From Kineococcus sp. NBC_00420 (GTDB lineage Bacteria; Actinomycetota; Actinomycetes; Actinomycetales; Kineococcaceae): 64,000 nt of DNA. The stretch lies in NCBI RefSeq assembly GCF_036021035.1, contig NZ_CP107930.1, positions 3,968,001-4,032,000 on the forward strand. The letters are read 5' to 3'. The notes beneath the pieces are model-generated. The model was not told where the DNA came from. It saw nothing but the letters and a program-made list of their open reading frames with translations, and ran no database searches. Of this stretch, positions 36,753 to 51,143 are shown piece after piece. A program made the translations under genes and the position numbers. The stretch's first letter is position 1. Each line of letters opens with the position of its first letter.

Positions 36753-36934
36753 TGGCGCTCGAGAGCTGGGTCCTCGACCTGCTGCGCTGCCCGGTCTCCG
36801 GTGAACCCCTCTCCCCGACCACGGTCGACGGCGCGGAGTTCCTCGTGACGCCCTCGGGCCTGCGCTACCCGGTGCTCGACGGGGTTCCCGTCCTGCTCGC
36901 CGACCAGGCGATCCAGCCGGGCGCGAGCGCGTGA
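36752..36934 (+). CDS. Trm112-family protein
   Basis: 60 residues. LLRCPVSGEPLSP, FLVTPSGLRYPVLDGVPVLLADQA is the standard Trm112/YcaR fold; the single CP at the start is what remains of the zinc site, as in bacterial members. In eukaryotes Trm112 activates methyltransferases; in actinobacteria it is a constant neighbour of manB with unproven role. ATG overlaps the manB stop, and its own stop overlaps the SIS gene, so the three genes are translated as a unit. Confidence 0.93.
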   Translation: MALESWVLDLLRCPVSGEPLSPTTVDGAEFLVTPSGLRYPVLDGVPVLLADQAIQPGASA

Positions 36935-38088
36935 GCGCCCTCGACGAGGCCCTGCTCGCCGACGGCGACCAGCTCACCGGCGCCGACTCCACCGGTGTCC
37001 TGCGGGCGCTCGCCAGCGCCGGCGCGCAGGTCCGCGAGGCCCTCGACCTCTCCGCCGAGGCGCGGGTCGTGCGCCTCGCCGAGGACGACCGTCCGCGCGC
37101 CGTGGTCATCGCCGCGCTGGCGGGGAGTTCCGTCGTCGCCGACATCGTGCAGTCGCTGGCCGGGCGCGGTTGCCCGGTTCCCGTCGTCGTCCGCCACGGG
37201 GGGCCGCTGCCGAGCTGGGTCGGCCCGCTCGACCTCGTCATCGCCGTCTCGTTGTCCGGTCGCGCGCCGGGCCCGGTCGCGTTGGCCGTCGAGGCGTCCC
37301 GGCGCGGGGCGCGGGTCGTCGCGGTCGCCGGGGACGGTTCCCCGCTGTCCGAGATCGGTTCCCGCAACGGCAACGTGCACGTCCGGCCCGCCCGCGGGGT
37401 CCGCGCCGACGGCGGCGACCCGCGCTCGTCCCGGGTCGCGCTGTGGTCGCTGGTGACGCCCGTGCTGCTGGCCTGCGACGCGATGGGTCTGCTGTCCGCG
37501 TCGGCGAGCGAACTCGCCGGGGTCGCGGACCGCCTCGACGCCGAGGCCGAGGCGTGCCGCCCGTGGTCGGAGACGTTCGTGAACCCGGCGAAGGTCCTCG
37601 CCCTCGAGGTCTCCGGCGCGGTCCCGGTCGTGCTCGGTGACGGTGACCTGATGGCCGCGGCGGCCCGTCGCGCGGCCGGGATGCTGGCCCGCACGGCGCG
37701 GGTCCCCGCGGTCAGCGGCGCCCTGCCGGACGACGCGAGCGAGGTCGTCGCCACGTTCGGCGGGCCGTTCGCGGCCGGCGTCGACGACGTGTTCGCCGAC
37801 CCCTTCGTCGACGGCCCCGCCGGGCCCCGCCTGCAGTTGCTGATGGTCCGCGACTCCCCGCTCGCGGTCTCCGACGAGGACCGCCGACTCGCGAACGCCG
37901 TGGTCACGACCGCGAGCGACGCCGGGGTGCGGGTCTCCGAACTCGTCGCCGACGAGGGAACCCCCGCGCAGCGGCTCGCGCAGCTGATCGCCCGCACCGA
38001 CTACGCCGCGGTGTACCTGGCGCTGGCCTCCGGGATCGACCCCGAACGCTCCCCGCAGGTCGCCGACCTCAAGGACCGCCTGGGCTGA
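36931..38088 (+). CDS. SIS-domain protein (phosphoglucose/phosphomannose isomerase-like)
   Basis: 385 residues, two sugar-isomerase (SIS) domains (about 45-200 and 215-380). Features are AALAGSSVVADIVQSLAG, IAVSLSGRAPGPVALAVEASRRGARVVAV, and the C-terminal RLAQLIARTDYAAVYLALASGIDPE, which matches the bifunctional PGI/PMI family. It probably interconverts hexose-6-phosphates in support of manB, but the active-site glutamate and histidine cannot be assigned with confidence. GTG start overlaps the Trm112 stop by GTGA. Confidence 0.9.
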   Translation: MSALDEALLADGDQLTGADSTGVLRALASAGAQVREALDLSAEARVVRLAEDDRPRAVVIAALAGSSVVADIVQSLAGRGCPVPVVVRHGGPLPSWVGPLDLVIAVSLSGRAPGPVALAVEASRRGARVVAVAGDGSPLSEIGSRNGNVHVRPARGVRADGGDPRSSRVALWSLVTPVLLACDAMGLLSASASELAGVADRLDAEAEACRPWSETFVNPAKVLALEVSGAVPVVLGDGDLMAAAARRAAGMLARTARVPAVSGALPDDASEVVATFGGPFAAGVDDVFADPFVDGPAGPRLQLLMVRDSPLAVSDEDRRLANAVVTTASDAGVRVSELVADEGTPAQRLAQLIARTDYAAVYLALASGIDPERSPQVADLKDRLG

Positions 38089-38112
38089 GGAGCTCCGCAC
38101 GGCGCGGGACGT

Positions 38113-38168
38113 GGAGTGGAGCGTTCCGCGGCCCTGTACGCCTCGTGAGCCGCGAAACGCTCCACTCC
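38113..38168. terminator. 20-bp hairpin after the manB operon
   Basis: Arms 38113-38132 and 38149-38168 pair over 20 bases with one mismatch around a 16-base loop, between the convergent SIS and hydrolase genes. Confidence 0.7.
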
Positions 38169-38175
38169 GCAGACG

Positions 38176-38994
38176 TCAGCCGGCGAGCCAGGCCAGGACG
38201 TCGCGGTGCAGGGCGAGCTGGTAGTCGCCCTGGATGCCGTGCGGGGCACCCTCGTAGACCTTGAGGGTCCCGTCCTTCACCAGGGTGATGGACTTCTTCG
38301 CCGCGCCGTCGATGGGCACGATCTGGTCGTCGTCGCCGTGGCAGAGCAGGATCGGGACCCCCAGGGCCTGGAGGTCCTCGGTGAAGTCGGTCTCGGAGAA
38401 CGCCTTCACGCAGTCGTAGGCCGCGACCAGGTTCACCAGCATCCCCTGGCGCCAGAAGTCGTCCTTGTCGCCCTGGGACACCGCTCGGCCGTGGTTGGCG
38501 CCGAAGAAGCTCTCCGACAGGTCCTGGTAGAACTGCGAGCGGTCGGCGAGGACCCCGGCGCGGATCCCGTCGAACACCTCGATCGGCAGCCCCTCCGGGT
38601 TGGTGTCGGTCTTCGCCATCAGCGGGGGGACCGCGCCGAAGGTGACGACCTTCGACACCCGTCCGTCCGCGTACCTCGCCGCGTACTTCACGACCTCGCC
38701 ACCACCGGTGGAGTGGCCCATCACGACGACGTCGTGCAGGTCCAGGGACTCGATCAGCGCCGCGAGGTCGCGGGCGTAGGTGTCCATGTCGTGGCCGTTC
38801 GCGGTCTTCTCGGACCGGCCGTGGCCCCGCCGGTCGTGGGCGATGACGCGGTAGCCGGCGTCGGAGTAGACCTTGAGCTCGACCTGCCAGGCGTCCGAGC
38901 TCAGGGGCCAGCCGTGGCTCAGCACGATGGGCCGGCCGGTACCGGCCTCGGTGTAGTAGATCTCGACACCGTCGGGAGTGATGAAGGTGGGCAT
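38176..38994 (-). CDS. Alpha/beta hydrolase, non-heme chloroperoxidase type
   Basis: 272 residues, cytosolic. Nucleophile elbow GHSTGGGE, oxyanion region SHGWPLSSDAW, catalytic Asp in CHGDDDQIVP and His in GAPHGIQ. The sequence is very close to bacterial cofactor-free haloperoxidases/esterases of the perhydrolase group (FITPDGVEIYYTEAGTGRPIVLSHGWPL). ATG at 38994 gives the family N-terminus. It is a single gene at the edge of the accessory block, read opposite to the manB operon. Confidence 0.93.
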   Translation of the reverse strand: MPTFITPDGVEIYYTEAGTGRPIVLSHGWPLSSDAWQVELKVYSDAGYRVIAHDRRGHGRSEKTANGHDMDTYARDLAALIESLDLHDVVVMGHSTGGGEVVKYAARYADGRVSKVVTFGAVPPLMAKTDTNPEGLPIEVFDGIRAGVLADRSQFYQDLSESFFGANHGRAVSQGDKDDFWRQGMLVNLVAAYDCVKAFSETDFTEDLQALGVPILLCHGDDDQIVPIDGAAKKSITLVKDGTLKVYEGAPHGIQGDYQLALHRDVLAWLAG

Positions 38995-39130
38995 GCGGCG
39001 CAGCATGTCGGGGAACCGACCGGCCCGTCCAGACCCACCGCCGAGGGCCGGGCGCCGTCCGCGTGCCGGTCCAGGAGTGTTCACCGAGCCGGTGCCGAGA
39101 CGTCGCCGCAGCGTTCGGCCGACCGTCGGG

Positions 39131-39529
39131 TCAGCGGGCGGGCCGGGTCGGGTCGAGGGTGCGGGAGGTGACCCGGCCGAACTCGTCCACGATCACCTGC
39201 GTGGTGCGGCGCCGGGCGGCGCGGACACGGGCGACGACCAGCCAGACCGGCAGCCAGCAGCCGAGGCTGCAGATCGAGCCGATGAGGTGGCGGCGGTGGG
39301 AAGTGGTGCGTCCCCAGCGGAGGACCGCCTGGTGCGCGCCCGCCGACTCCACCACCGCGCCCTCCGCCTGCCAGCGGCGCAGAGCGAGGTGGAGCACCCG
39401 GGCCCGCTCGACGTCGCCCGAGAGCAGGGGCGGCGCCTCGGGGACCGGGTCGGAGGATCCGGCCCGGCCGGTTCCGCCGACGACCCGTGCGTCGCCTCGC
39501 GACGGCTTCCAACGTTCCAGCAGGGACAA
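39131..39529 (-). CDS. Hypothetical membrane protein
   Basis: 132 residues with an N-terminal soluble part (about 1-75, RARVLHLALRRWQAEGAVVESAGAHQAVLRWGR) and one or two membrane helices (about 82-102, ICSLGCWLPVWLVVARV), then a basic tail. No family recognised. TTG start with ribosome site GGAGA 8 bases upstream. The promoter region holds the inverted repeat TCTAGCAG/CTGCTAGA. It sits behind the EAL gene in the same direction but with its own upstream signals. Confidence 0.6.
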   Translation of the reverse strand: MSLLERWKPSRGDARVVGGTGRAGSSDPVPEAPPLLSGDVERARVLHLALRRWQAEGAVVESAGAHQAVLRWGRTTSHRRHLIGSICSLGCWLPVWLVVARVRAARRRTTQVIVDEFGRVTSRTLDPTRPAR

Positions 39530-39544
39530 CGCGGTTCTCCGATG

Positions 39545-39571
39545 TCTAGCAGTTCCAGACCTTCTGCTAGA
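39545..39571. promoter_or_regulatory. Inverted repeat TCTAGCAG-11-CTGCTAGA
   Basis: Perfect 8-base arms (39545-39552 and 39564-39571) upstream of the TTG-start membrane protein gene and behind the EAL gene. Shape and site suit a dimeric regulator. A related TCTAGAAG occurs at 30054 and 42565. Confidence 0.5.
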
Positions 39572-39691
39572 TGTTTCGGGAAGTGGTTGCGCATTCTTGA
39601 GGTGCTGCCGACCCCCTCCGGGACCGGCGCGCGAGAGGTCGTGGACTCGACGGGACGCCGAGACGTCAGCGCCGCGCCCCCGCGCACACCG

Positions 39692-42562
39692 TCAGCCCGC
39701 GGCGTGGACCGGTGTCGCGCAGTCCGCCACCGGAGCCGCCAGCTCACGGGCCGCCCGACCCGCGATCGCGACGGCGGTGGTGCGCAGCACGGGGTCGAGT
39801 TCGTGCTGCGGATCGCGCCAGACGGCGACCAGCACGTGGCTGACGCCACCGTGGCCGGTGGTGACGGGGACGGTGAGGATCGCCGCGGCCCCGAGGTGGC
39901 GGGTGAGGTCACTCTCCTCCAGGCTGCTGGTCGCGGCGTCCGGCACCCACACCGGGCGCCCGGTGGCGATCGAGCGGGCGACGGCGCTGCGTCCGGTGAG
40001 GTCGAAACCGACCCGGGTCAGCAGGTGGGGGTCGACGTCGCCCCGGTGCTCGAGCAGTTGCCACGGCCCGGCGCCCGACGGCGCGGGGTGCACCACGAGG
40101 CTGTGGTCGGGCCGGAGCAGCTCGTGGACCGCGGTGGCGAACGTCGCGACCACCCGGTCCGGGCCGGGGACCCGGTGGTGTCCGTCGTCGAGCTCGGCCA
40201 CCGCTCGCAGCATGTTCCGCGCACCGTCGAGCCGGTCGGCGACGTCGATCCCGGCGAGGTGGTCGGCCACCACGTCGGCGAGCAGCTGCAGCTGGCTGCG
40301 CTGGAGGTCGCTCGAGGGCAGCAGCCCGCGGTCGTAGGCGCACAGGACGCCCAGGACCCGCCCCGCCGCGTCGATCACCGGGGCGCCGACGTAGTGCTGG
40401 ATCCCCGCCTGCGAGGCCGAACCCCCCGCGCCGCGCCCGTCGGTCGAGGGGTCGAGGTGCAGGACGTCGTGCTGCTGCACCGTCCAGGCGCAGGGGGTGC
40501 CGTCACGGGGAGCGAGGGCGGTCTCGTGGCCGTGAGGAGCCAGCAGGTGCACGTGCTCCTCGGTGACGGCGTTGAAGCTGGCGAACTGCGTCCCGCTGAC
40601 GGCGGCGGCCAGGGCCGTGATGCTGCTCAGCACGTCCGCAGAGCTGCGGGCGGAGCGCAGGACGGTGTGGGCCAACTGCACCCGCTCCTCCTCGTCGGCG
40701 CCGCGAGGGGCCGGCGCGGGTTCCGCCGCGGAAGGGGCTCCGGAACCCACGGGGGCGCTCGGGAAGACGTCGGCGGCCGGGACCGGCCGGGCGAAGTGGA
40801 ACCCCTGCAGGACGTCGGCGCCCAGGGCGTGGATGAGGTCGGCGGTGGAGGCGTCCTCCACCCCTTCGGCCACGACCTCCATCGACAACCGGTGGGCGAG
40901 GTCGACCAGGGCCCGCACGATGGCGGTGTCGGCGGGGACCTGCGCGGCGGCGGCCACGAAGCAGCGGTCGATCTTCAGTTCGTCGACCTCGAGCTGGCGC
41001 AGCATCGTCAGCGAGGTGTAGCCGGTGCCGAAGTCGTCCAGGGAGATGCGCGCCCCGGCGGCGCGCAGGTCGGCCAGGACGGCGCCGGCGCCCTCGGGGT
41101 CGCCCAGCAGGGCGCTCTCGGTGACCTCCAGGGTGAGGACGCCGTCGCCCAGGTGGTTCTCGGCGACGGCCCGGCGCACCGCGTTGAGCAGCGCGGGGTC
41201 GGCGAGCACGACCGGGGAGACGTTGACCGACACCCCCACGTCGTGACCCTCCGCGCGCCAGGCGGCGCACTGGGCGGCGGCGGTGCGCAGCACCCAGTAG
41301 GTGAGACCGACGATGGCCTGGCTGCGCTCGGCGAGGGGGATGAACGCGCCCGGGCCGAGCAGCCCGCGTTCGGGGTGCTGCCAGCGCACGAGGGCCTCCA
41401 CGCCGACGGTGCGGCCGGTGCCGGCGGCGACGAGGCGCTGGTAGTGCACCCGCAGCTGGCCCGCCTCGACGGCGGCGGGCAGCTCGGCGTGCAGGCGCAG
41501 CGCGTCGGCGTCGAAGGCCGCCTCGCCCTCGGCCACGGCGACGTGCTCCTGGTCGCCGGCGGCGCGCACCGCCGCGACGTCGGCCAGCGCGAGCAGCTCC
41601 TCGACCTCCCGGCCGTGCTGCGGAGCGCACGCCACACCGATCGAGACGTCGGGGCGCACCGTCAGACCCTGGCCGGGACCGTCGCCGCTCAGGACGACGT
41701 GCTCGCGCAGCACGTCGAGCAGCACCCGTCCCTCGGCGCGGCACGTGCTGGTGGCCTCGCCCGAGCCGTCGAGCTCGGCGGGACGCACGACGGCCAGGGA
41801 GTCCTGGTCGATGCGGGCGACGACGGCGCCCGGCAGGTCGGCGGCGCGGCGGGCGCACTCGGCGATGACCTCCTCGGCGGCGGCGGGACCCAGGGCCAGG
41901 CGCAGGTCGCGCAGGTCGTCGAAGTGGGCGACGCTCACCGTCGCCTGCCCGGCCAGACCCTCGCTCGCCTGCAACTGTTCGGCGCAGCTCTCGAACAGCC
42001 CTCTGCGGTTCAGCAGTTCCGACCCGCCGTCGCGACGGGCGCGGCGTGCGGCCAGGGACAGCAGCGAGCGGACGCCGAGGACCGGCAGCACGGTGGTGGC
42101 GGGCAGGACGGCCAGCCACCCCGCGACCTGGCCGGGGTGCCCGGAGGCGAGGAGGGCGGTGGGCAGCAGCAGGAACGGCAGCGCGGTGGCGGCGAGCATG
42201 CCGCGCACCGAGCGCAGGAACGGGATGTGCGCCGCGGTCGCGCAGTAGAGCGCGACGAACACACCGACCGCGGGCGAGCCGTCGGCGGCGTAGACGCAGA
42301 CCGAGGTGGTCACCGCCGCGCCGACGAGGGCGGCCCGGTGGCTGAGCAGCGGCCACGCGGGGACGAGCAGCAGTCCCGCACCACTGAGGAGACCCGAGAC
42401 GGCGATCGTGAGGATCGCCCCGTCGTGCACGCCGGTCCAGCCGGGCAGCAGCGCGACGGAGGCGGTGATGAGGCTGGCGACCAGGTACTCGACCGCCACG
42501 AGGCGGCGCCCGGGTCCTCCGTCGCCGAGGTCGACGATCGGCTCGCGCTGCTGACTAGTCAC
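39692..42562 (-). CDS. Membrane EAL phosphodiesterase with degenerate GGDEF and two GAF domains
   Basis: 956 residues. Membrane region (about 25-170, six helices), degenerate GGDEF domain (about 180-340; the active site reads RIDQDSLAV at 250-258, so no cyclase activity is expected), EAL domain (about 350-605) and two GAF domains (about 640-780 and 800-950). The EAL catalytic residues look complete: EALVRW (389), NVSP, EVTES, DDFGTGYTS (509-517), KIDRCFV, AEGVE (565-569). It should degrade cyclic di-GMP, with GAF domains sensing small ligands. GTG start at 42562 lies 74 bases behind the epimerase stop, so it may be the last gene of that operon. Confidence 0.94.
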   Translation of the reverse strand: MTSQQREPIVDLGDGGPGRRLVAVEYLVASLITASVALLPGWTGVHDGAILTIAVSGLLSGAGLLLVPAWPLLSHRAALVGAAVTTSVCVYAADGSPAVGVFVALYCATAAHIPFLRSVRGMLAATALPFLLLPTALLASGHPGQVAGWLAVLPATTVLPVLGVRSLLSLAARRARRDGGSELLNRRGLFESCAEQLQASEGLAGQATVSVAHFDDLRDLRLALGPAAAEEVIAECARRAADLPGAVVARIDQDSLAVVRPAELDGSGEATSTCRAEGRVLLDVLREHVVLSGDGPGQGLTVRPDVSIGVACAPQHGREVEELLALADVAAVRAAGDQEHVAVAEGEAAFDADALRLHAELPAAVEAGQLRVHYQRLVAAGTGRTVGVEALVRWQHPERGLLGPGAFIPLAERSQAIVGLTYWVLRTAAAQCAAWRAEGHDVGVSVNVSPVVLADPALLNAVRRAVAENHLGDGVLTLEVTESALLGDPEGAGAVLADLRAAGARISLDDFGTGYTSLTMLRQLEVDELKIDRCFVAAAAQVPADTAIVRALVDLAHRLSMEVVAEGVEDASTADLIHALGADVLQGFHFARPVPAADVFPSAPVGSGAPSAAEPAPAPRGADEEERVQLAHTVLRSARSSADVLSSITALAAAVSGTQFASFNAVTEEHVHLLAPHGHETALAPRDGTPCAWTVQQHDVLHLDPSTDGRGAGGSASQAGIQHYVGAPVIDAAGRVLGVLCAYDRGLLPSSDLQRSQLQLLADVVADHLAGIDVADRLDGARNMLRAVAELDDGHHRVPGPDRVVATFATAVHELLRPDHSLVVHPAPSGAGPWQLLEHRGDVDPHLLTRVGFDLTGRSAVARSIATGRPVWVPDAATSSLEESDLTRHLGAAAILTVPVTTGHGGVSHVLVAVWRDPQHELDPVLRTTAVAIAGRAARELAAPVADCATPVHAAG

Positions 42563-42636
42563 TATCTAGAAGTCGGGTGGTGGAGCGCCGTCCTCCATGC
42601 TCCGTCCGGGTGAACTGCGAACGGTGGACGGCCGGG

Positions 42637-43740
42637 TCAGGCCGTCTGGGGCGTGAGCGCCCCGCCCCGGGCCAGGGTGGCGATCCGCTGGGAGGCCAGG
42701 CCGTCGCCGTAGGGGCTGGGGGTCGCCGCCAGGCGGGCCAGCACCTGCGGGGAGGACATCCGCTCGGCGTGCTCGACGAGGTGCTCGGGCTCGCTCAGCA
42801 CGGAGAACCCCGCGGCCACCGACTCGGGACGTTCGGTGCTGGTCCGGACGACCACGAGCGGCTTCTTCAGGACCGTGACCTCCTCCTGCAGCCCGCCGGA
42901 GTCGGACACCAGCAGCGACGCGCTGCGGGTGAAGGCCAGGAAGGTCCGGTAGTCCACCGGGGGCAGCACCTGCACCGCGGCCGGGACCGCCGTGCCCCAG
43001 GTGGCCAGCGCCTTGCGGGTCCTGGGGTGCAGCGGCAGGGCCACGGGGGAGCCGAGACGACCCAGCCCGTCGAGCAGTGCGCCCAGCCGCGCCGGGTCGT
43101 CGGTGTTCTCCGGACGGTGCACCGTGGCCAGCACGAACCGTTCCGGGAGCCCGTGCGCGGCGAGCAGGCGGGCACCTTCCGCCTCGTCCGGGAGCAGGTT
43201 CGCGACCGCCTCCACGATGGGGTTGCCGGTCACGAAGACGGCCTCGGCGGGCACGGCGCCGTCGAGGAGGTTGCGTGCGTTCTCCGGGGTGGCGGCGCAG
43301 TGCACGTCGGCGAGCGCCGACACCAGCAGGCGGTTCGTCTCCTCCGGCATCGCCCGGTCGTGGCTGCGCAACCCCGCCTCGACGTGCACGACCGGGATCC
43401 CGAGGTAGTGCCCGGCCTGCGCACCGGCGTTGGTCGTGTTCGTGTCGCCCTGGACGACGACGGCTCGCGGACGGCTGCGGGTGAAGAGCTGCGAGAGCTG
43501 ATCCACCATCGTGGCGACCTGCTGGGCGCGGGTGCCGCCGCCGACGCCGGCGAGCGTCGGGGCCGTGACGGGCAGGCCGCAGGAGCGGAACACCGCGTCG
43601 GTGAGCTCGGCGTCGTAGTGCTGTCCGGTGAAGACCGGGTGCCCGTCCGCCCCGAGCGCGAGCAGGACGGGGGCCAGCTTGATGATCTCGGGACGGGTGC
43701 CGAAGACGACGGCGACCTTCCCGGTGAGGTTCTCAGCCAC
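42637..43740 (-). CDS. wecB: UDP-N-acetylglucosamine 2-epimerase (non-hydrolysing)
   Basis: 367 residues. Converts UDP-GlcNAc to UDP-ManNAc in the cytosol. Family motifs are complete: FGTRPEIIKLAPV, QHYDAELTD, VQGDTNTTNAGA, HVEAGLRSHD, MPEETNR, TVHRPENTDD and SDSGGLQEE. ManNAc is a precursor of ManNAc-containing wall and capsule polymers, so the gene supplies a donor for the GT2 in the same operon (inference). GTG start overlaps the end of the secreted-protein gene by 8 bases, so the two are translationally coupled. Confidence 0.95.
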   Translation of the reverse strand: MAENLTGKVAVVFGTRPEIIKLAPVLLALGADGHPVFTGQHYDAELTDAVFRSCGLPVTAPTLAGVGGGTRAQQVATMVDQLSQLFTRSRPRAVVVQGDTNTTNAGAQAGHYLGIPVVHVEAGLRSHDRAMPEETNRLLVSALADVHCAATPENARNLLDGAVPAEAVFVTGNPIVEAVANLLPDEAEGARLLAAHGLPERFVLATVHRPENTDDPARLGALLDGLGRLGSPVALPLHPRTRKALATWGTAVPAAVQVLPPVDYRTFLAFTRSASLLVSDSGGLQEEVTVLKKPLVVVRTSTERPESVAAGFSVLSEPEHLVEHAERMSSPQVLARLAATPSPYGDGLASQRIATLARGGALTPQTA

Positions 43741-44593
43741 GGCTCCCGCTCCTCGCGCTCAGGGCGTGCAGGACGGGACGGCGGAAGCGCCAGCCGAGCA
43801 CGGCGAGCGCCGCGGCGCTCAACGGTGCGGCGGGTCCGGGGAGGGCGTTGGTGGGGACGGTCTTCGCGTTGGCGCCGCAGGTGACGGTGCCGACGTTGAC
43901 GGCGGCGACGGTCCCGCTCAGGAGGTTGATGGTGAGGGCGGTGGCCTGGACGCTGCCGGGGCCGGCGGGGGTGCTCGTGGCCCGCAGTCCCAGCTGGGCG
44001 GCGCCCGGCACGACGACACCGGAGTTCTCGGCGGGGGAGCTGTTCAGGACGATCGTCGGGATCCCGGCGACGAACACCTTGGCGTTGGTCAGCTTGACGG
44101 TGTTCGTCGTGGTGCCGGCGGACGCGGCGGTGCAGGACGCGAGGATCGCGTCGGCCTTGATGACCGTCCCGGCGACCAGGGTGATCTGCACCCCGCTGGA
44201 GCCCCCGCCGGTGACGGCGCAGGTCCCGTCGGCACCCACGGTGATGACGCCACCCGCACCGACGAGTCCGGCGCAGGCGGCGGAGGAGCCGTCGGCGCGG
44301 GCCACGGCCGTCTGCACCAGGGTGCCGGCGGTGATGCCGCCCTGACCGCCCAGCAGGGACAGCGCCGGGGTCTGCGCGGTCGTCTGCGTCGCGCCGGACC
44401 CGGGGTTCGAGGCGGACACCGTGTTCGAGGTGACGGCCGAGACGCCGAGGACGCCGACGGTCACCGCGTTGGCGGTGGCCACCGAGGTGTCGGCCGCGGC
44501 GGACCCCGCGCTCACCAACCCCAGTGCGGCGGCTCCGGCGACGCCCGCGGTGAGCAGGCGTCCCCAGTGACGGGGTTTCGTGTTCTCGTCCAT
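43733..44593 (-). CDS. Secreted protein with exosortase-like C-terminal sorting tail
   Basis: 286 residues. Sec-type signal peptide (about 1-34: basic start, hydrophobic core, SAGSAAA). The middle is Gly/Ala/Ser/Thr/Val-rich beta structure that fits the choice-of-anchor P family (IKADAILASC, then PGSVQATALTIN and VGTVTCGANA). The C-terminus has the three parts of a sorting signal: NALPGPAAP (249-257), a short hydrophobic stretch (258-268) and RFRR (269-272), then an Arg/Ser tail. It is encoded between the GT2 and the epimerase, two genes downstream of the exosortase-like gene. It is a probable cargo of that enzyme. Good ribosome site (GAGGAG). Confidence 0.82.
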   Translation of the reverse strand: MDENTKPRHWGRLLTAGVAGAAALGLVSAGSAAADTSVATANAVTVGVLGVSAVTSNTVSASNPGSGATQTTAQTPALSLLGGQGGITAGTLVQTAVARADGSSAACAGLVGAGGVITVGADGTCAVTGGGSSGVQITLVAGTVIKADAILASCTAASAGTTTNTVKLTNAKVFVAGIPTIVLNSSPAENSGVVVPGAAQLGLRATSTPAGPGSVQATALTINLLSGTVAAVNVGTVTCGANAKTVPTNALPGPAAPLSAAALAVLGWRFRRPVLHALSARSGSRG

Positions 44594-44604
44594 GGTCCTG
44601 CTCC

Positions 44605-46005
44605 TCAGCTGCTCGGGAGGGGTGAGGGGATCGGGGTGTTCGCGACGGGCCGGTCGTGGGTCCGGGCGGTCTTGTGCCACTCGGTGTGGCCCTTGAGGAC
44701 GCGGAACAGCGCGCGCCAGGCGCAGATCTGCAGCAGGTAGCCGTAGCCGATGTTGGCCACGGCCATCCACAGCGCCCCGCGCCGGGTGACGAACGTCCCG
44801 CAGTGGCTGCGGTAGAAGAACCCCCACAGGGCGTGGGGCAGCACCCCGAAGAGCAGGCCCAGCGGGATGAGGCCCCAGGCCCCGGCCAGCAACCACCGGT
44901 CGGCGCCCTGGGGGTCGCTGAAGGCGTAGTAGAGGGTGACGATCGAGGTCAGCGGGAACACGACGCTGCCGAAGACCTGGGAGAACGGGACCCACATGTA
45001 GTGCGCGATCTCCAGGGCGCCGGAGATGGAGATGCGCTCGGAGTTCAGGACGCGCCACAGGTAGCGCAGGCACTGGATGTTGCCCTGCGACCAGCGGGTG
45101 CGCTGGCGCAGCAGGGGTCCCACCTCGCTCAGGCCGTCCTGGGCGACGAACGTGTCGTGGCAGTACTCGGTGCGGTGCCCGGCCAGCAGGACGTGCAGAC
45201 CGAGTTCGAAGTCCTCCAGCAGGGCTCCGTGCCACGGCGTGCCGTTGTCGCGGGCGACGTCGTCGAGGGCGGTGAGGCGGGTGAACTGCCCGTTGCCGCC
45301 CATCGCGACGCTGCCGGTGCGCCGGCGCAGGAACTGCATCGCCGCGATGGGGCCGGCGAACTCCAGGTCCTGCAGGCGCACGAGGACGTGGTCACCCCGG
45401 GTGCGGGCCCGGGAACCGACGAGGCGGTCCAGGTCGGTCCCGACGAGGGCGTCGACGTCCTCGGTGATGCGGACCTGGACCTGCACCGCCCCCACCGTCG
45501 GGTCCCCGAACAGCGTCGGGCCGGCGACGACGTCGGGGCAGAACTGCTCCAGGCGCCCGTCCGCGTCCACGACACCGACGACCACGCGGGAACGGTCGCC
45601 GTCTGCGGGAACTTCCGCGCAGATCCGCCGGTAGGCGTCGTTGAGGGCTTCGCCCTTGCCCTTGCGGGCCTCCGGGGGGCGGCGGCTGACGACGCGGACC
45701 TTCTCGTGCCGGGTCGCCAGCCAGGTGATCAGCTCGTGGGTGTGGTCGCGGGAGTCGTCGTCGATGCACCACACGGTCGCCTCGGGGAAGTTGTCCAGCA
45801 GGTGCTGGACGGTGCCCACGATGACCGTCTCCTCGTCCAGGCAGGGGATGAGGATGTGCCAGTCGAAGTCCGCGCGGTCACCGAGTTCCACCTCGCGGTT
45901 GCGCAGGAAGGGGCGCAGGACGGTGATGACGTAGCTGAGGAACAGCACGCACAGCACGAAGGCGGCGGTGTTCAGCAGGGCCAGGCCGAGGTGGACGCTA
46001 TCCAC
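44605..46005 (-). CDS. Processive-type membrane glycosyltransferase family 2
   Basis: 466 residues. One N-terminal helix (about 5-27), a GT-A domain (about 45-330) with CLDEETVIVGTV, CIDDDSRDHT, the VVDADGR metal site, the LLEDFELG acceptor-side acid and the QRTRWSQGN (QxxRW) motif, then three or four C-terminal helices (about 340-430). The QxxRW motif and layout are those of cellulose/hyaluronan/poly-GlcNAc synthase-like enzymes that polymerise and export a glycan. The GTG start overlaps the exosortase-like gene by 8 bases. Confidence 0.93.
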   Translation of the reverse strand: MDSVHLGLALLNTAAFVLCVLFLSYVITVLRPFLRNREVELGDRADFDWHILIPCLDEETVIVGTVQHLLDNFPEATVWCIDDDSRDHTHELITWLATRHEKVRVVSRRPPEARKGKGEALNDAYRRICAEVPADGDRSRVVVGVVDADGRLEQFCPDVVAGPTLFGDPTVGAVQVQVRITEDVDALVGTDLDRLVGSRARTRGDHVLVRLQDLEFAGPIAAMQFLRRRTGSVAMGGNGQFTRLTALDDVARDNGTPWHGALLEDFELGLHVLLAGHRTEYCHDTFVAQDGLSEVGPLLRQRTRWSQGNIQCLRYLWRVLNSERISISGALEIAHYMWVPFSQVFGSVVFPLTSIVTLYYAFSDPQGADRWLLAGAWGLIPLGLLFGVLPHALWGFFYRSHCGTFVTRRGALWMAVANIGYGYLLQICAWRALFRVLKGHTEWHKTARTHDRPVANTPIPSPLPSS

Positions 46006-46564
46006 GGCGCACCACCCGCGAGCCCCGGGTCAGCAGGACCAGGAAGGTCAGGCCGCCGGCGACGACGCCCACGGTGCTGACGATCGATCCGGCCAGGACG
46101 TGGGTGACCCCGTAGCCCTGCTCCACGCCCCAGAGGTGCATCCCGGTGGCGATGGTCAGCAGCCGCAGCTGGTTGACCGCGGCCACCACCAGGGCGGCGA
46201 CGCCCAGGGCGCCCAGGGTGACGACGGCCGGCATCCGCCGCACCGGCAGGAGCATGGCCGAGACGAGCACGAACGGCACGAGCAGCACCACGGCGCTGCA
46301 CCCGATGGTCACGGTGTGCCCGACGAGCAGCCCGTCGATCCGGTAGAGGGCGTTGTCGTCCACGCAGCGGGCGTCGGGACCCCACGTGCTGCGGACCAGC
46401 AACGCCGAGACGCACGCCTCGGTGTGCCGGACGGCGCGGTCGTGGGCCAGCAGCACCACGGTGGCCACCAGCAGCCCGAGGGTGAGGACGCAGCGCACCG
46501 GGCCGATCTCGTGCAGGACGCCGGCGAGCCGCACGGTGCGGGGCACGGGCGCGGCGGCGCTCAC
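45998..46564 (-). CDS. Exosortase/archaeosortase-like membrane transpeptidase
   Basis: 188 residues with about six membrane helices. The catalytic triad expected for exosortases is visible in the right order and spacing: Cys89 (VTIGCSAVVLL), Arg134 (AVNQLRLLTI) and His155 (GYGVTHVLAG). The intervals of 45 and 21 residues agree with EpsH/XrtA-type enzymes as I recall them. Exosortases cut a C-terminal sorting signal and join the protein to a glycan or lipid. Here a protein with such a tail is encoded two genes downstream. GTG start overlaps the stop of the GAF/GGDEF gene (GTGA). It is short for the family (often 270 or more) and lacks the C-terminal EpsI domain. Confidence 0.8.
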   Translation of the reverse strand: MSAAAPVPRTVRLAGVLHEIGPVRCVLTLGLLVATVVLLAHDRAVRHTEACVSALLVRSTWGPDARCVDDNALYRIDGLLVGHTVTIGCSAVVLLVPFVLVSAMLLPVRRMPAVVTLGALGVAALVVAAVNQLRLLTIATGMHLWGVEQGYGVTHVLAGSIVSTVGVVAGGLTFLVLLTRGSRVVRRG

Positions 46565-47553
46565 GCGGGGCCCCCGTCGCGGCGGGCGCGGTAGAGGCGC
46601 TGCTCGGCCAGGGTCCACACCGCGCTGAGGTCGCGGGCCTCCCCGGAGGCCGCCCAGGCGGTGGTGGCGTCGAACCCGGCGGCCCGCAGGTGCGCGGCCA
46701 CCACGCGCCCGACCGCGTCGACCTCCTCGGACTCCGCGTCGGGCAGGATCGCGCCGAACTGACGGGCGGTGAGCCGGGAGACGGTCGCGTCGGGCAGCGC
46801 CCGCACGACGGTCTCGGTGGCCTTCTGGAGGCGCCGGGAGGAGCGGACCCGGCCCAGGTCGACCACGAGGAGGGCGACCGGGACGGCGCGTTCCACGCTG
46901 CGCCGGTCCTCCTGCTGCAGCAGCGCGCCCCAGCCGACTCGGCTGGACAGCTCCGTCACCCGGTCGGCGGCGTCGACGCGCACCGAGCGCCGCTCCGTCT
47001 CGCGCTGGGTGTCGTCCGCGGCGACCTCGGCGGCCAGGGCCTGCGCGAGCAGCTCGGCGAAGGCCCCCATGAGGCTCTCCACCGCCGGCCCCACGGCCAC
47101 GTCGGGGCGGGAGCTCCACCCGGCCATCGTCCCGAGCAGGCGACCGTGGTCGTCGCGCAGCGCGGTGCCGGCGTAGGCGGTCATCCGCAGCGCGATCGCC
47201 GCGGGGGCCCGCACGTAGTTGGGCACGAGGGTGATGTCGGGGGCGACCGCCGGCCCGAGGCCGTTGACCATGCGCCGGCACACCGTGTCCGACCAGGGGA
47301 CGCGGTGTCCGACGTGCACGCCGGTCGCCTCGCCGGACACCGCCAGCGGCAGCACCGCCGGCCCGTCCAGGCGCCCGAGGTACCACGTGTCGAGGCCGGT
47401 GCTCCCCGCGAGGGCCTCCACCACCTGTCGTGCGCTGCGGCGCAGCGACGTCCCGGTCGCGGTGCCGGTCGCACGGGGGCGGGGTCGGGTGCGGAGCACC
47501 GACGTCCCCGGTGCCGGGACCGCGGCGCGGCTTGCCAGTTCGACCATGCTCAC
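46561..47553 (-). CDS. GAF protein with a degenerate GGDEF domain
   Basis: 330 residues. GAF-like sensor domain (about 40-180; CRRMVNGLGPAVAPD, GTMAGWSSRP) followed by a GGDEF fold (about 210-330) whose active site reads LTARQFGAILPD, so it cannot make cyclic di-GMP by the normal mechanism. It may bind a nucleotide and act as an effector or receptor. First gene of the minus-strand operon; its stop overlaps the exosortase-like start. GTG at 47553 or ATG at 47547 are both possible starts. The N-terminus is Arg/Thr-rich and unlike the rest. Confidence 0.85.
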   Translation of the reverse strand: MSMVELASRAAVPAPGTSVLRTRPRPRATGTATGTSLRRSARQVVEALAGSTGLDTWYLGRLDGPAVLPLAVSGEATGVHVGHRVPWSDTVCRRMVNGLGPAVAPDITLVPNYVRAPAAIALRMTAYAGTALRDDHGRLLGTMAGWSSRPDVAVGPAVESLMGAFAELLAQALAAEVAADDTQRETERRSVRVDAADRVTELSSRVGWGALLQQEDRRSVERAVPVALLVVDLGRVRSSRRLQKATETVVRALPDATVSRLTARQFGAILPDAESEEVDAVGRVVAAHLRAAGFDATTAWAASGEARDLSAVWTLAEQRLYRARRDGGPA

Positions 47554-47672
47554 GGAGGAGGCATCGGCCCACGGGGAGGGGATCCTGATGCTCCGAACGT
47601 GTAGTAGAAGTTCCCCGGGCAGGTGTTAGAAGAAGGAGTGCAGGGCCACCGTGGGAATGCCGATGGGATGGG
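47554..47672. promoter_or_regulatory. Divergent regulatory region of exosortase operon and sensor kinase
   Basis: 119 bases. Contains GTAGTAGAAGTTCC (about 47610-47623) and GTTAGAAGAAGGAG (about 47635-47648), purine-rich repeats resembling the TCTAGAAGT sites at 30054 and 42565. No sigma-70 hexamer pair stands out. A GGATGGGG stretch precedes the kinase GTG. Confidence 0.4.
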
Positions 47673-49568
47673 GTGACCGACACCTCCGCAGGGACCAGCG
47701 GGTCCCGCCGTCGCCTCCTGGTCCACCGCGCCGCCGTGCTCGGCCTCCCCCTCGCGCTGCTCGGCGGCGGGATCGGGGCGAGTGCCGTCGTGAGCGGGGT
47801 GCTGCAGCGGTCGGGGGCGGAGCACGCTCGTCTCGCCACGGACGCGGCCGCCGCCGAGGAGGCCGCCGCCCTGGGCGACGCGGTCCGCACCTACACCAGC
47901 ACGCTGGAGTCGCTGGCGACCGTCGTGGGCGACCAGCCGGCGCTCACCGACGACGACTTCCAGGACCTCACCGCCACGATGACCTCGCTGCCCGGGGTGG
48001 CCAACCTGACCTACACCGTTCCCGTCGCCGACGACCCGCAGGCCGTGGTCCGGGCGCAGCAGGAGCTGCGGGCCCAGCTCGGGACGCAGCTCAGCCTCAA
48101 ACCCCAGCCCACCACGATCGGTGAGCACCTCTTCGTCGTCAGCTACCGCGCGGTCGACGTCGTCGGTTCGGCCCTCGGCGCCGACGCGGCCGCGGTCCCG
48201 CAGATCGCGGTCGCGGCGACCGAGGCCCGCGACAGCGGTCGGGTCACCGTGACGGCCCCCTACGTCCTCCTCGCCGACCGCGTCCTCCCGGTCGAGCAGC
48301 AGCAGCAGTCCGTCCTCTTCGTGGCCCCCGTCGTCGGCGGTCCCGGCCAGGCCGACCGGGGCGTCTTCCGCGGCTGGGTCTCCGCCTCCTTCCGCACCGG
48401 CACCGTCCTGCGGTCCACCGCCGACCGGCACACCGCCGACCAGTCGGGTTCCCTGGGGGCGAATCTGACGCTGTGGGACACCACCGACGCGGCCGGCCCG
48501 CAGCGGCTCGCCACCGTCGATCCCGGGACCGCACTGGCGGACGTCTCCTCCGGTGCCGACGTCATCGCCGCCTCCCGCCGCTGGCGGTTGCAGGTGACCC
48601 CCACCGGGCGCGCCTACGCCGAGGAACTCGGCCACGCCCCGTCCGTCGCCTTCACCGCGGGCAGCACCGCGTCGTTGCTGCTGGCGGCCTTGCTGTTCTC
48701 GGTGACCTCCGGTCGCGAACGCGCCCGGCGCCGGGTCGAGCAGGCCACCGCGCAGCTCGCCGACGAGGTCGTCTCCCGCCGCCACAGCGAGGAGTCCCTG
48801 CGCACCCGCGAGTCGGAGCTGGGCGCCTACACGACCGTCGTCGCGGACCGGTTGCGCCTGCCCCTGGCGCGGCTGACCGCTCTGGCCGCCGCCTCGCGCG
48901 AGACGGAGACGTGGACGGCCGCCGACTGGCAGGACCGCCTCGACGCCGTCGACCACCGCCTCGACCGGGCCCGCCGGCTCGTGGACGACCTGCTCCTGTA
49001 CGCCCAGGTCAGCGAGACGGCGCTCACCGAACGCGCCGTCGACCTCTTCGCCACCGCGACGCTGGTCGCCGACGAGCAGGAGGCCCTCACCGCCCACCTG
49101 CCCGAGGACCTGCGACCGCGGATCGAGGTCGGGCCGCTGCCGGAGGTGGTCGGGGAACCCTGGCTGCTGCACCAGCTGCTCGCCCGCCTGGTGGACAACG
49201 CGGTCGTCCACGCCCCCGCCGGGCAGGCCGCCGTGGTCACCCTCGGCGCCGAGCTGACCGGTTCGCGGTTCCGCGGGGAGGTGTGGCGCATCGAGGTCCG
49301 GGACCGGGGCCTGGGCGTGCCCCTCGAGCAGCGCGCCGGCGTCTTCGAGCCCTTCGCGGGGGAGGACGCCGACGTCGAGCTCGGCGGCAACCACCTCAGC
49401 CTCGCCATCTGCCGCCGCATCGCGCTGCGCCTGGGCGGGGACATCGGCGTGGAGGACGACCCGCGCGGGGGCAGCGTCTTCTGGTTCACGCTGCCGGTGC
49501 GCAGCACGGCCGGGGTCCTCACGGCCCCGGTCGCGGCTCCCTCGACGGCGGTCCCCGCGCTCGGCTGA
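47673..49568 (+). CDS. CHASE sensor histidine kinase with His-to-Asp change in the H-box
   Basis: 631 residues. Helix about 15-42, a CHASE-type extracytoplasmic domain (about 55-250), second helix (about 322-344), coiled coil, then a HisKA-like helical pair and an HATPase domain (N-box LVDNAVVHAP at 506-515, G1 box DRGLGVP, G2 GGNHLSLAICRRI). In the H-box the LRxPL part is kept (394-398) but the residue two before it, normally the phospho-accepting His, is Asp392. Autophosphorylation on the usual site is therefore excluded. The C-terminal tail is Ala/Val/Pro-rich. GTG start, divergent from the exosortase operon across 119 bases. Confidence 0.9.
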   Translation: MTDTSAGTSGSRRRLLVHRAAVLGLPLALLGGGIGASAVVSGVLQRSGAEHARLATDAAAAEEAAALGDAVRTYTSTLESLATVVGDQPALTDDDFQDLTATMTSLPGVANLTYTVPVADDPQAVVRAQQELRAQLGTQLSLKPQPTTIGEHLFVVSYRAVDVVGSALGADAAAVPQIAVAATEARDSGRVTVTAPYVLLADRVLPVEQQQQSVLFVAPVVGGPGQADRGVFRGWVSASFRTGTVLRSTADRHTADQSGSLGANLTLWDTTDAAGPQRLATVDPGTALADVSSGADVIAASRRWRLQVTPTGRAYAEELGHAPSVAFTAGSTASLLLAALLFSVTSGRERARRRVEQATAQLADEVVSRRHSEESLRTRESELGAYTTVVADRLRLPLARLTALAAASRETETWTAADWQDRLDAVDHRLDRARRLVDDLLLYAQVSETALTERAVDLFATATLVADEQEALTAHLPEDLRPRIEVGPLPEVVGEPWLLHQLLARLVDNAVVHAPAGQAAVVTLGAELTGSRFRGEVWRIEVRDRGLGVPLEQRAGVFEPFAGEDADVELGGNHLSLAICRRIALRLGGDIGVEDDPRGGSVFWFTLPVRSTAGVLTAPVAAPSTAVPALG

Positions 49569-49588
49569 GCGTCCGCGGGCCGGGCGCG

Positions 49589-49594
49589 TACTCT
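49589..49594 (+). promoter_or_regulatory. -10 element of ahcY
   Basis: TACTCT; 6 bases downstream is the base at which the structured leader begins (49601). A weak match without an evident -35. Confidence 0.4.
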
Positions 49595-49600
49595 GGGGGG

Positions 49601-49650
49601 AGCTCCGGCGTCCGGTGATGCCGAGTGGCCCAGAGGGGCCGCGCCGGGAG
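49601..49650 (+). ncRNA. Structured mRNA leader of ahcY, class unknown
   Basis: Outer stem CUCCGGCG (49603-49610) with CGCCGGGAG (49642-49650, one bulged G). Inside is the hairpin GGCCC-AGAG-GGGCC (49627-49640). It occupies the first 50 bases of the predicted leader and stops 29 bases before the ahcY ATG. A metabolite sensor is possible since ahcY degrades S-adenosylhomocysteine, but the conserved core of known SAH riboswitches is not recognisable. Confidence 0.35.
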
Positions 49651-49679
49651 ACCGTCACAGACCGCACGAGAGGACAACC

Positions 49680-51143
49680 ATGTCTTTCGAGTACCAGGTC
49701 CGGGACCTTTCCCTGGCCGAAGCCGGACGCCACGAGCTGCGTCTGGCCGAGCACGAGATGCCCGGGCTCATGGCGCTGCGCGCCGAGTTCGGCGAGGCCC
49801 AGCCACTGGCCGGCGCCCGCATCGCAGGGTCCCTGCACATGACGGTGCAGACCGCCGTCCTCATCGAGACCCTCGTCGCCCTCGGCGCCGAGGTCCGCTG
49901 GGCCAGCTGCAACATCTTCTCCACCCAGGACCAGGCCGCCTCGGCGATCGTCGTGGGCGCGGGCACCGTCGAGGAGCCCGCCGGCGTCCCCGTCTTCGCC
50001 TGGAAGGGGGAGACCCTCGAGGAGTACTGGGCGCTCGCCGACCGGATCTTCGACTGGGGCACCGACGCCGAGGGCCACCGCATCGGCCCGAACATGATCC
50101 TCGACGACGGTGGCGACGCCACCATGCTCGTCCTCGAGGGCAAGCGCTTCGAGGCCGCCGGGGCCGTCCCCGCGACGACCGAGGAGGACTCCGAGGAGTA
50201 CGCGGTCGTCCTCGAACTGCTCCGCAAGAGCATCGCCGAGGACCCCGAGCGCTGGACCCGCATCGCGGCCCAGATCCAGGGCGTCACCGAGGAGACGACC
50301 ACCGGGGTGCACCGCCTCGCGGAGTACTTCCGCAACGGCGTGCTGCCCTTCCCGGCGATCAACGTCAACGACTCGGTGACGAAGTCGAAGTTCGACAACA
50401 AGTACGGCACCCGCCACTCGCTGATCGACGGCATCAACCGCGGGACCGACATCCTCATCGGCGGCAAGACGGCCGTCGTGTTCGGCTACGGCGACGTCGG
50501 CAAGGGTTCCGCGGAATCCCTGCGCGGCCAGGGTGCGCGCGTCGTCGTCACCGAGGTCGACCCCATCAACGCCCTGCAGGCCGCGATGGACGGGTTCCAG
50601 GTCGTCCGCCTCGAGGACGTCGTCGAGACCGCCGACATCTTCATCACCGCGACGGGCAACAAGGACGTCATCATGGCGGCCGACATCGCGAAGATGAAGC
50701 ACCAGGCCCTCGTCGGCAACATCGGTCACTTCGACAACGAGATCGACATCGCCGGTCTGGCGAAGATCCCCGGGGTCGAGAAGATCGAGATCAAGCCGCA
50801 GGTCCACGAGTGGCGCATCCCCGCGAGCGGAGACGTTGCCGCGCACAGCATCATCATGCTGTCCGAGGGGCGCCTGCTGAACCTCGGCAACGCGACGGGG
50901 CACCCCAGCTTCGTGATGTCGAACTCGTTCACCAACCAGGTCCTCGGCCAGATCGAGGTCTTCACCAAGCCCGCGGAGTACCCCGTCGGCGTCCACCGCC
51001 TGCCGAAGCACCTCGACGAGAAGGTCGCGCGCCTGCACCTCGACGCGCTCGGCGTGCACCTGACGGAACTCACGAAGTCGCAGGCCGAGTACCTCGGCGT
51101 CGACGTCGAGGGTCCGTACAAGTCCGACCACTACCGGTACTGA
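49680..51143 (+). CDS. ahcY: Adenosylhomocysteinase
   Basis: 487 residues. Hydrolyses S-adenosylhomocysteine to adenosine and homocysteine with bound NAD in the cytosol, keeping methyltransferases free of product inhibition. Key parts are present: [37 protein letters not shown], the NAD motif [15 protein letters not shown], and the C-terminal KSDHYRY for NAD contact. The insertion near 160-200 is the form typical of actinobacteria. ATG with GAGAGGA ribosome site 5 bases upstream. In mycobacteria sahH lies downstream of the manB/manA block; here an 11-kb accessory block stands between. Confidence 0.97.

Follow-up and report, generated by a model that had tools for sequence, protein, structure and literature searches.

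The PEP-CTERM/EpsH protein-sorting system with PrsK, PrsR and PrsT belongs to outer-membrane bacteria and usually serves several cargo proteins (median 8); its description (Haft 2006, PMC1569441) reports that no PEP-CTERM domains were found in actinomycetes. Here we describe a locus of the actinomycete Kineococcus sp. NBC_00420 (contig NZ_CP107930.1), located at positions 39692–49568 of a window of 64,000 nucleotides, the whole stretch of DNA analyzed. It encodes a short exosortase, a single secreted cargo, a membrane glycosyltransferase of family 2 (GT2), a 2-epimerase for UDP-N-acetylglucosamine (UDP-GlcNAc) and putative signalling proteins. On balance, we favor the view that this is a dedicated one-cargo actinobacterial exosortase system in which sorting is coupled to a polymer-making GT2 apparatus with its own supply of UDP-N-acetylmannosamine (UDP-ManNAc), and in which a pseudo-cyclase serves as regulatory subunit.

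The locus shares with PEP-CTERM/EpsH (PMC1569441) the exosortase, the tripartite cargo tail, exopolysaccharide genes and a sensor kinase. It differs in its single cargo and its pseudo-enzyme signalling, and the exosortase scored only 17.1 bits with the EpsH family PF09721 (gathering cut-off 25.7). A search of the window's genome with PF09721 gave no match at E ≤ 0.001. The XrtP, XrtR and XrtS exosortases are actinobacterial families. Together with the XrtP-associated glycosyltransferase (NF012139, NF012138, NF033767, NF053846) they present a short exosortase beside the same GT2 family and a choice-of-anchor P cargo. However, the window exosortase and glycosyltransferase both fall below the cut-offs of these families, and the single coupled operon of the window additionally includes genes for an epimerase and a pseudo-GGDEF protein. 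The XrtG system of Lactiplantibacillus (Firmicutes) also combines a Gram-positive exosortase and one tailed protein with glycosyltransferases, two of them (PMC12854382), whereas the window has one glycosyltransferase, an epimerase and signalling genes. No XrtG-named family was found among the matches of the window exosortase at E ≤ 0.1. Given XrtP/XrtR/XrtS and XrtG, an exosortase beside a glycosyltransferase in a Gram-positive bacterium, which the first-pass annotation of this DNA had emphasized, is not in itself new.

In the Gram-positive Pel operon with PelD, a protein that combines GAF with a degenerate GGDEF domain accompanies genes for polymer synthesis, an epimerase and a phosphodiesterase (PMC7112168). 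The window regulator differs from PelD in having no I-site and no predicted transmembrane helix, and the window additionally has an exosortase and a cargo. No Pel-named family appeared among the matches of the window proteins scanned. The archaeosortase ArtA resembles the exosortase in its Cys-based processing of C-terminal tails, for which a lipid-anchoring model has been presented (PMC7157517). ArtA itself is archaeal. We know of no linked GT2 and epimerase operon for ArtA. Judged by these analogies, the Kineococcus system resembles XrtG and PEP-CTERM in sorting and the Pel operon in its GAF/degenerate-GGDEF protein. Nothing recognizable as this operon was found in the titles and abstract beginnings of open-licence papers; this literature yielded no paper on choice-of-anchor P, none on an exosortase in Kineococcus, and nothing on this operon under exosortase with Streptomyces or cyclic di-GMP (c-di-GMP).

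Gene order and conservation of the operon

Read on the minus strand, the operon consists of the genes for a GAF/pseudo-GGDEF protein (46561–47553), the exosortase of 188 amino acids (45998–46564), the GT2 (44605–46005), the cargo (43733–44593) and the epimerase (42637–43740), followed by that for an EAL/GAF membrane protein (39692–42562). A CHASE sensor is encoded divergently on the plus strand (47673–49568). According to the coordinates, adjacent genes overlap by 4 bases (GAF/exosortase) or 8 bases (exosortase/GT2 and cargo/epimerase), or are separated by 11 bases (GT2/cargo) and 74 bases (epimerase/EAL). The first-pass annotation had described this arrangement. Genes at related loci were called with a home-made gene caller, which shortened or missed the GAF proteins of the window and of locus L033; both were entered by coordinates. 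Loci and genomes are given below by L and G numbers.

The glycosyltransferase profile NF053846 (E ≤ 1e-60) found matches in 21 of the 198 genomes searched from the order and in 4 of the 11 from the genus, the window's genome counted. Among the 24 places found in the order, one on a contig of 3,950 bases (L017) was left out of the locus comparison, and two Mangrovihabitans loci were added from a named collection. The genes for the GAF protein, exosortase, GT2 and cargo stand in identical order at 11 loci, and the epimerase gene comes next at ten of them. These loci belong to nine genomes of three families: four of the window's genus (G162 with two copies), four of g9, another genus of this order, and Mangrovihabitans with two loci. 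The 8-base overlap of exosortase and GT2 genes is present at 10 of the 11 loci and the 4-base overlap of GAF and exosortase genes at nine. The five-gene order at ten loci together with the recurring 8-base overlap argues that the block did not arise by chance. The first-pass annotation had named the joint lack of an exosortase profile match and of conserved linkage as what would speak against its idea; both the match and the linkage were found.

In a tree of 32 glycosyltransferases the 11 operon members formed one clade (support 100/99). Mangrovihabitans grouped with the window's genus (100/98) and the second G162 copy, more weakly, with g9 (93/88), which suggests transfer or an old duplication. 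The identity matrices of the five operon proteins correlated with r of 0.80–0.98, as shared descent alone would also produce. For at least one g9 genome, G115, no exosortase match was listed; thus, the operon is patchy in g9 too.

Outside this clade, eight loci (L031, L058–L064) carry an exosortase together with a GT2. None of the eight matched the GAF profile; a cargo was detected by profile at L058, L059 and L062, and an epimerase at L059, L061, L062 (in two frames), L063 and L064. The glycosyltransferase gene adjoined the exosortase gene at 19 of 19 exosortase loci examined, 12 of which had been fetched by their glycosyltransferase and are not independent, and the six class genomes found by the exosortase alone all had an adjoining glycosyltransferase gene. 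Exosortase profile A1 matched in 7 of 394 genomes of the class and 9 of 198 of the order, and glycosyltransferase profile A4 (E ≤ 1e-80) in 2 of 396 genomes of the phylum, the window's genome counted each time. Absences in these large searches are soft, as only a few candidates were scored per genome, for example 8 out of 53 in that of the window; the genus searches scored all candidates.

Exosortase, glycosyltransferase, epimerase and cargo

The window exosortase scored 27.4 bits with TIGR04178 (cut-off 23). Three of four other operon exosortases scanned also exceeded this cut-off; that of L036 remained below it (19.9). All 11 operon exosortases carry the residues C89, R134 and H155, and the C/R/H set is present at 19 of 19 loci with exosortase and GT2. 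Simple hydropathy analysis indicated about four transmembrane helices. A search against solved structures returned a single match, to a ribosomal protein (E 0.24). By its profile score and its catalytic residues the protein qualifies as a genuine member of the exosortase superfamily, in agreement with the first-pass annotation. The scores for XrtS (77.7, cut-off 145), XrtP (65, cut-off 200) and XrtR (60.2, cut-off 150) reach roughly one third to one half of the respective cut-offs. With a score below the XrtP cut-off, the system is not simply XrtP. Directly upstream of the exosortase, or read jointly with it, small LPxTG/LAXTG-like membrane proteins were observed at three loci (L058:10997–11185, L062:3051–3389 and the start of L063:6614–7315). 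The sortase-like tail scored just over the LPXTG cut-off at L063 and under the LAXTG cut-off at L062, and was recognized by eye at L058.

The GT2 narrowly missed the cut-off of the XrtP-associated glycosyltransferases (NF053846, 509.8 bits against 520) and also matched PF13641. Its synthase-type motifs DDDS, DAD, ED and QRTRW are conserved across 11 aligned rows. Glycosyltransferases above the NF053846 cut-off were also seen in frames of 600+ amino acids at L027, L028, L029, L030 and L032, in genomes without an XrtP match; a kinase-like gene adjoins the glycosyltransferase gene at these five loci.

The epimerase was identified as WecB by TIGR00236 (270.1 bits, cut-off 210.15) and is presumed, from this assignment, to supply UDP-ManNAc as a non-hydrolysing UDP-GlcNAc 2-epimerase. 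It contains the strings that we take to be the catalytic motifs. An epimerase of the WecB type was matched in the sequence retrieved around 15 of the 19 loci with exosortase and GT2, at varying positions outside the clade, and at 8 of 13 glycosyltransferase loci without an exosortase; both counts depend on the length of sequence retrieved per locus, 10 to 19 kb, and the matches at L062 and L027 are spread over two frames. L047, which has no adjacent epimerase gene, was excluded from the epimerase comparisons. Genomes of the genus contain 0 to 3 WecB genes at E ≤ 0.001, two of them in the window's genome, so that, by informal judgement, we regard the linkage as far above chance. The linkage is our best, albeit indirect, indication that UDP-ManNAc may be used. 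The second glycosyltransferase of G078 is likewise paired with a WecB epimerase (L041:8179–10642), with no exosortase in the stretch.

The cargo combines an N-terminal hydrophobic signal with a beta-rich domain and four invariant Cys residues (alignment A3, 11 loci). As seen by eye and by motif search, its tail consists of PxxAxP (P, A and P invariant), a short hydrophobic stretch and an Arg that is invariant at 11 of 11 loci. The window tail reads VPTNALP; VPTxAxP occurs in 8 of the 11 tails and only PxxAxP at L033, L034 and L040. The choice-of-anchor P profile NF040603 matched the window cargo (28.9 bits, cut-off 27) and the L058 cargo (38.3) and none of three other operon cargoes scanned (E ≤ 0.01). 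Within the genus, profile A3 found at E ≤ 1 the five operon cargoes in four genomes, together with a single borderline match in G120 (E 0.0046). There is one cargo per exosortase locus. The AF2 model predicts a beta-rich body and a C-terminal helix (pLDDT confidence score 72 overall). Profile scores, motifs and cargo profile A3 thus bear out the synthase-type GT2, the single tailed cargo and the sugar-nucleotide supply of the first-pass annotation. A different arrangement was observed at L061:11759–14098, where three tandem cargo-like proteins with a near-identical tail (DDIPxVAPAVA..) are encoded beside exosortase, glycosyltransferase and epimerase.

Signalling proteins and the variable cassette

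The GAF/pseudo-GGDEF protein of the window carries TARQF in place of GGDEF, has no RxxD I-site and shows a deletion of 10 residues in the active site. Neither GGDEF nor RxxD was present in any of the 11 operon copies, whereas each was found in 10 of 12 relatives, picked from more than 100 listed places (four of them encoded in the window's genome and eight elsewhere). The 10-residue gap occurs in 11 of 11 operon copies, where relatives have NDxxGHxxGD or a variant, and in none of the 12 relatives. Judged by these alignments, the protein is excluded both as a cyclase and as a receptor that binds c-di-GMP at an I-site, and the two functions were rejected for the GAF gene. This departs from the c-di-GMP-like signalling of the first-pass annotation, which would be left to the EAL protein, within the genus. 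Residues W57, R61, C92, W208, D232, R260 and R264 are invariant, which argues for constraint.

The AF2 model of this protein (pLDDT 80) matched the diguanylate cyclase 4zmu (E 9.5e-13), as did the profile (E 5.6e-9). Pfam GGDEF matched 10 of the 11 operon copies at E ≤ 0.1 (best 2.9e-6) and the GAF family PF01590 eight of them. No transmembrane helix was predicted in the two proteins checked, those of the window and L048. The parent family is common, since profile A2 matched in 38 of 198 genomes of the order. At or near the epimerase gene, a related protein was found at L038:4894–6399, L039:12898–14427 and L040:12505–14061; the last, the only copy scanned, has GAF matches together with a methyl-accepting chemotaxis protein (MCP) signalling domain.

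The divergently encoded protein matched CHASE (PF03924, 70 bits) and HATPase (PF02518, 75 bits) and remained below the cut-off for HisKA (22.9, cut-off 26.9). Six divergent proteins were picked by hand from nine labelled rows, the L048 row having no CHASE match in Pfam. The column of the phosphoacceptor His holds Asp in four, Ser in L047 and Thr in L048, and the N-box Asn and the G1 motif are retained. Three other kinases were aligned, of which both from L048 have the His and one from the window (30236–32344) does not. None of the six divergent proteins has the phosphoacceptor His, which makes the earlier label "kinase" for the CHASE protein doubtful and rules out an ordinary kinase. The L048 protein (L048:5015–7177, Mangrovihabitans), a His-less sensor divergent from the five-gene operon, has a HATPase and a C-terminal PilZ domain (PF07238, 43.9 bits) with RxxxR and DxSxxG, which we take to be the PilZ motifs. 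At L036 the divergent gene encodes a LuxR/AAA regulator.

The EAL/GAF membrane protein matched PF00563 (219 bits), GAF_2 (41.9) and a degenerate GGDEF (34.3), has about five transmembrane helices by simple hydropathy, and contains what are presumably the catalytic motif strings of the EAL domain. Its gene adjoins the operon only in the window's genus, with orthologs at L033–L035 only among the 10 other loci. This restriction excludes EAL as a general part of the system.

Presence and absence within the genus concern a cassette of seven genes that extends from EAL to CHASE (39692–49568). The right-flank gene ahcY (49680–51143) is present in 11 of 11 genomes and the GT2 gene is missing in seven. 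In these seven, the conserved left-flank gene (36931–38088) and ahcY are adjacent with no cassette gene between them, about 140–190 bases apart in five and about 1.1–1.2 kb apart in two (L099, L101); a tblastn search with the cassette proteins found no match in these stretches (E ≤ 1e-3). The flanks are separated by 11.6 kb in the window, which defines the variable stretch 38089–49679 by comparison across the genus, and by about 9 kb in L033 and L035. In G162 they are 1.6 kb apart, and the genes from EAL to CHASE are located on another contig with EAL at its end. Because they are absent, present or relocated together, the EAL and CHASE genes travel with the five operon genes in this genus. The divergent intergenic region (47554–47672) contains CCGAACGnGTAnTAG, common to four loci of the genus in an alignment and a possible shared promoter or operator. 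Between the left flank and the EAL gene, the window holds an abhydrolase gene (38176–39084) and a small open reading frame (39131–39529). Neither has a relative in L033 or L035, and the L034 contig ends before that place.

Proposed working and alternatives

In the proposed system, WecB would convert UDP-GlcNAc to UDP-ManNAc, and the GT2, using UDP-sugars at the inner face, would synthesize or lengthen a glycan bound to the membrane and pass it outward. A signal peptide would direct the export of the single cargo, and the C-terminal tail would retain it. The exosortase would cut this tail near PxxAxP through Cys89, with Arg134 and His155, and hand the cargo on to an acceptor. This acceptor would most likely be what the GT2 produces or the lipid carrier of that product, and the cargo would remain on the surface or in the matrix. 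The GAF/pseudo-GGDEF protein, whose gene opens the operon and overlaps with that of the exosortase, would be a non-enzyme; its GAF domain would most likely bind a ligand, and the protein would most likely serve as a regulatory or scaffold subunit of an exosortase/GT2 complex. In the genus only, local c-di-GMP and outside signals would add further input, by way of the EAL enzyme and the CHASE protein without the His. Of the first-pass idea of a signal-gated system linking one cargo to a ManNAc-containing glycan, the cargo pairing and the epimerase linkage stand; glycan, acceptor and signal, like all biochemical steps, we infer.

Several observations weigh against this proposal. The tail of the window cargo lies below a simple hydropathy cut-off and is mostly modelled with pLDDT < 50, so that a processing step is harder to recognize here than for classic PEP-CTERM proteins; a Foldseek search with the cargo model gave no match at E ≤ 0.001. 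Matches of the GT2 to solved sequences span about 100 residues or fewer. No epimerase was found in the fetched stretches of L031, L047, L058 and L060, although these have exosortase and GT2, and the L062 match is split over two frames. The window GAF/pseudo-GGDEF protein gave no GAF match at E ≤ 0.1, and the restriction of the EAL gene to the genus means that c-di-GMP input is not general. Furthermore, five of six genomes with a glycosyltransferase above the NF053846 cut-off (G011, G013, G076, G118, G146) had no match to the XrtP profile. Thus, the GT2 family does not need an exosortase, membership in it does not imply one, and the NCBIfam name "XrtP-associated" may overreach.

Glycosyltransferases in genomes without an XrtP match can apparently work alone, and this favors the main rival on the acceptor question. 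According to this rival, the operon unites two functions: GT2 and epimerase make a free exopolysaccharide, and the exosortase anchors the cargo to lipid like ArtA, with no covalent bond between cargo and glycan. ArtA-dependent maturation comprises cleavage and lipid anchoring (PMC7157517), and pairs of glycosyltransferase and epimerase without an exosortase match in the stretch occur at L041–L045, L065 and L066. The adjacency of glycosyltransferase and exosortase genes at 19 of 19 loci (12 fetched by the former) and their overlap at 10 of 11, however, suggest joint action. We regard lipid anchoring as a serious but less likely possibility.

The pseudo-GGDEF protein might alternatively be a PelD-like receptor through which c-di-GMP, at a level controlled by the EAL protein, would activate the GT2; this would be compatible with either acceptor. 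The layout of GAF and degenerate GGDEF, encoded next to polymer-making genes and an epimerase gene, recalls the Gram-positive pel operon (PMC7112168), and the EAL gene within the cassette and the PilZ domain of the L048 partner point in the same direction. However, the RxxD I-site, given there as the c-di-GMP site of PelD, is missing in 11 of 11 copies, no PelD-named Pfam family was among the matches of these 11, and the window and L048 members have no predicted transmembrane helix. Hence, a PelD-like receptor appears unlikely. It is more improbable still that the signalling genes are bystanders of a plain exosortase/GT2/cargo/epimerase operon with a decaying GAF gene: the lost catalytic motifs, the divergent gene that varies by lineage (CHASE, LuxR/AAA or PilZ protein) and the eight loci outside the clade without a GAF-profile match would agree with this, but the GAF gene is open, first, and overlapping or at most 16 bases from the exosortase gene across two subclades, and the common deletion and the seven invariant residues argue for constraint and not decay.

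Returning to the one-cargo system with a pseudo-cyclase subunit, its signalling part is its newest aspect. We put forward, with considerable doubt, a stronger version in which the pseudo-diguanylate-cyclase would be a fixed non-catalytic subunit gating exosortase and GT2 through a GAF ligand, and the His-less CHASE or PilZ partner would relay c-di-GMP and outside signals without phosphotransfer. Sorting would then be controlled post-translationally, and the exosortase would join one cargo directly to a ManNAc-containing glycan. To our knowledge, the acceptor of exosortase cargo and the control of exosortases are open questions. Here, a region of about 5 kb, absent from several sister species, unites a single exosortase with a single cargo, a single synthase and a single enzyme of sugar supply, together with a regulatory protein that, by its sequence, is unable to perform the chemistry of its family; with this, the questions of acceptor and control become testable.

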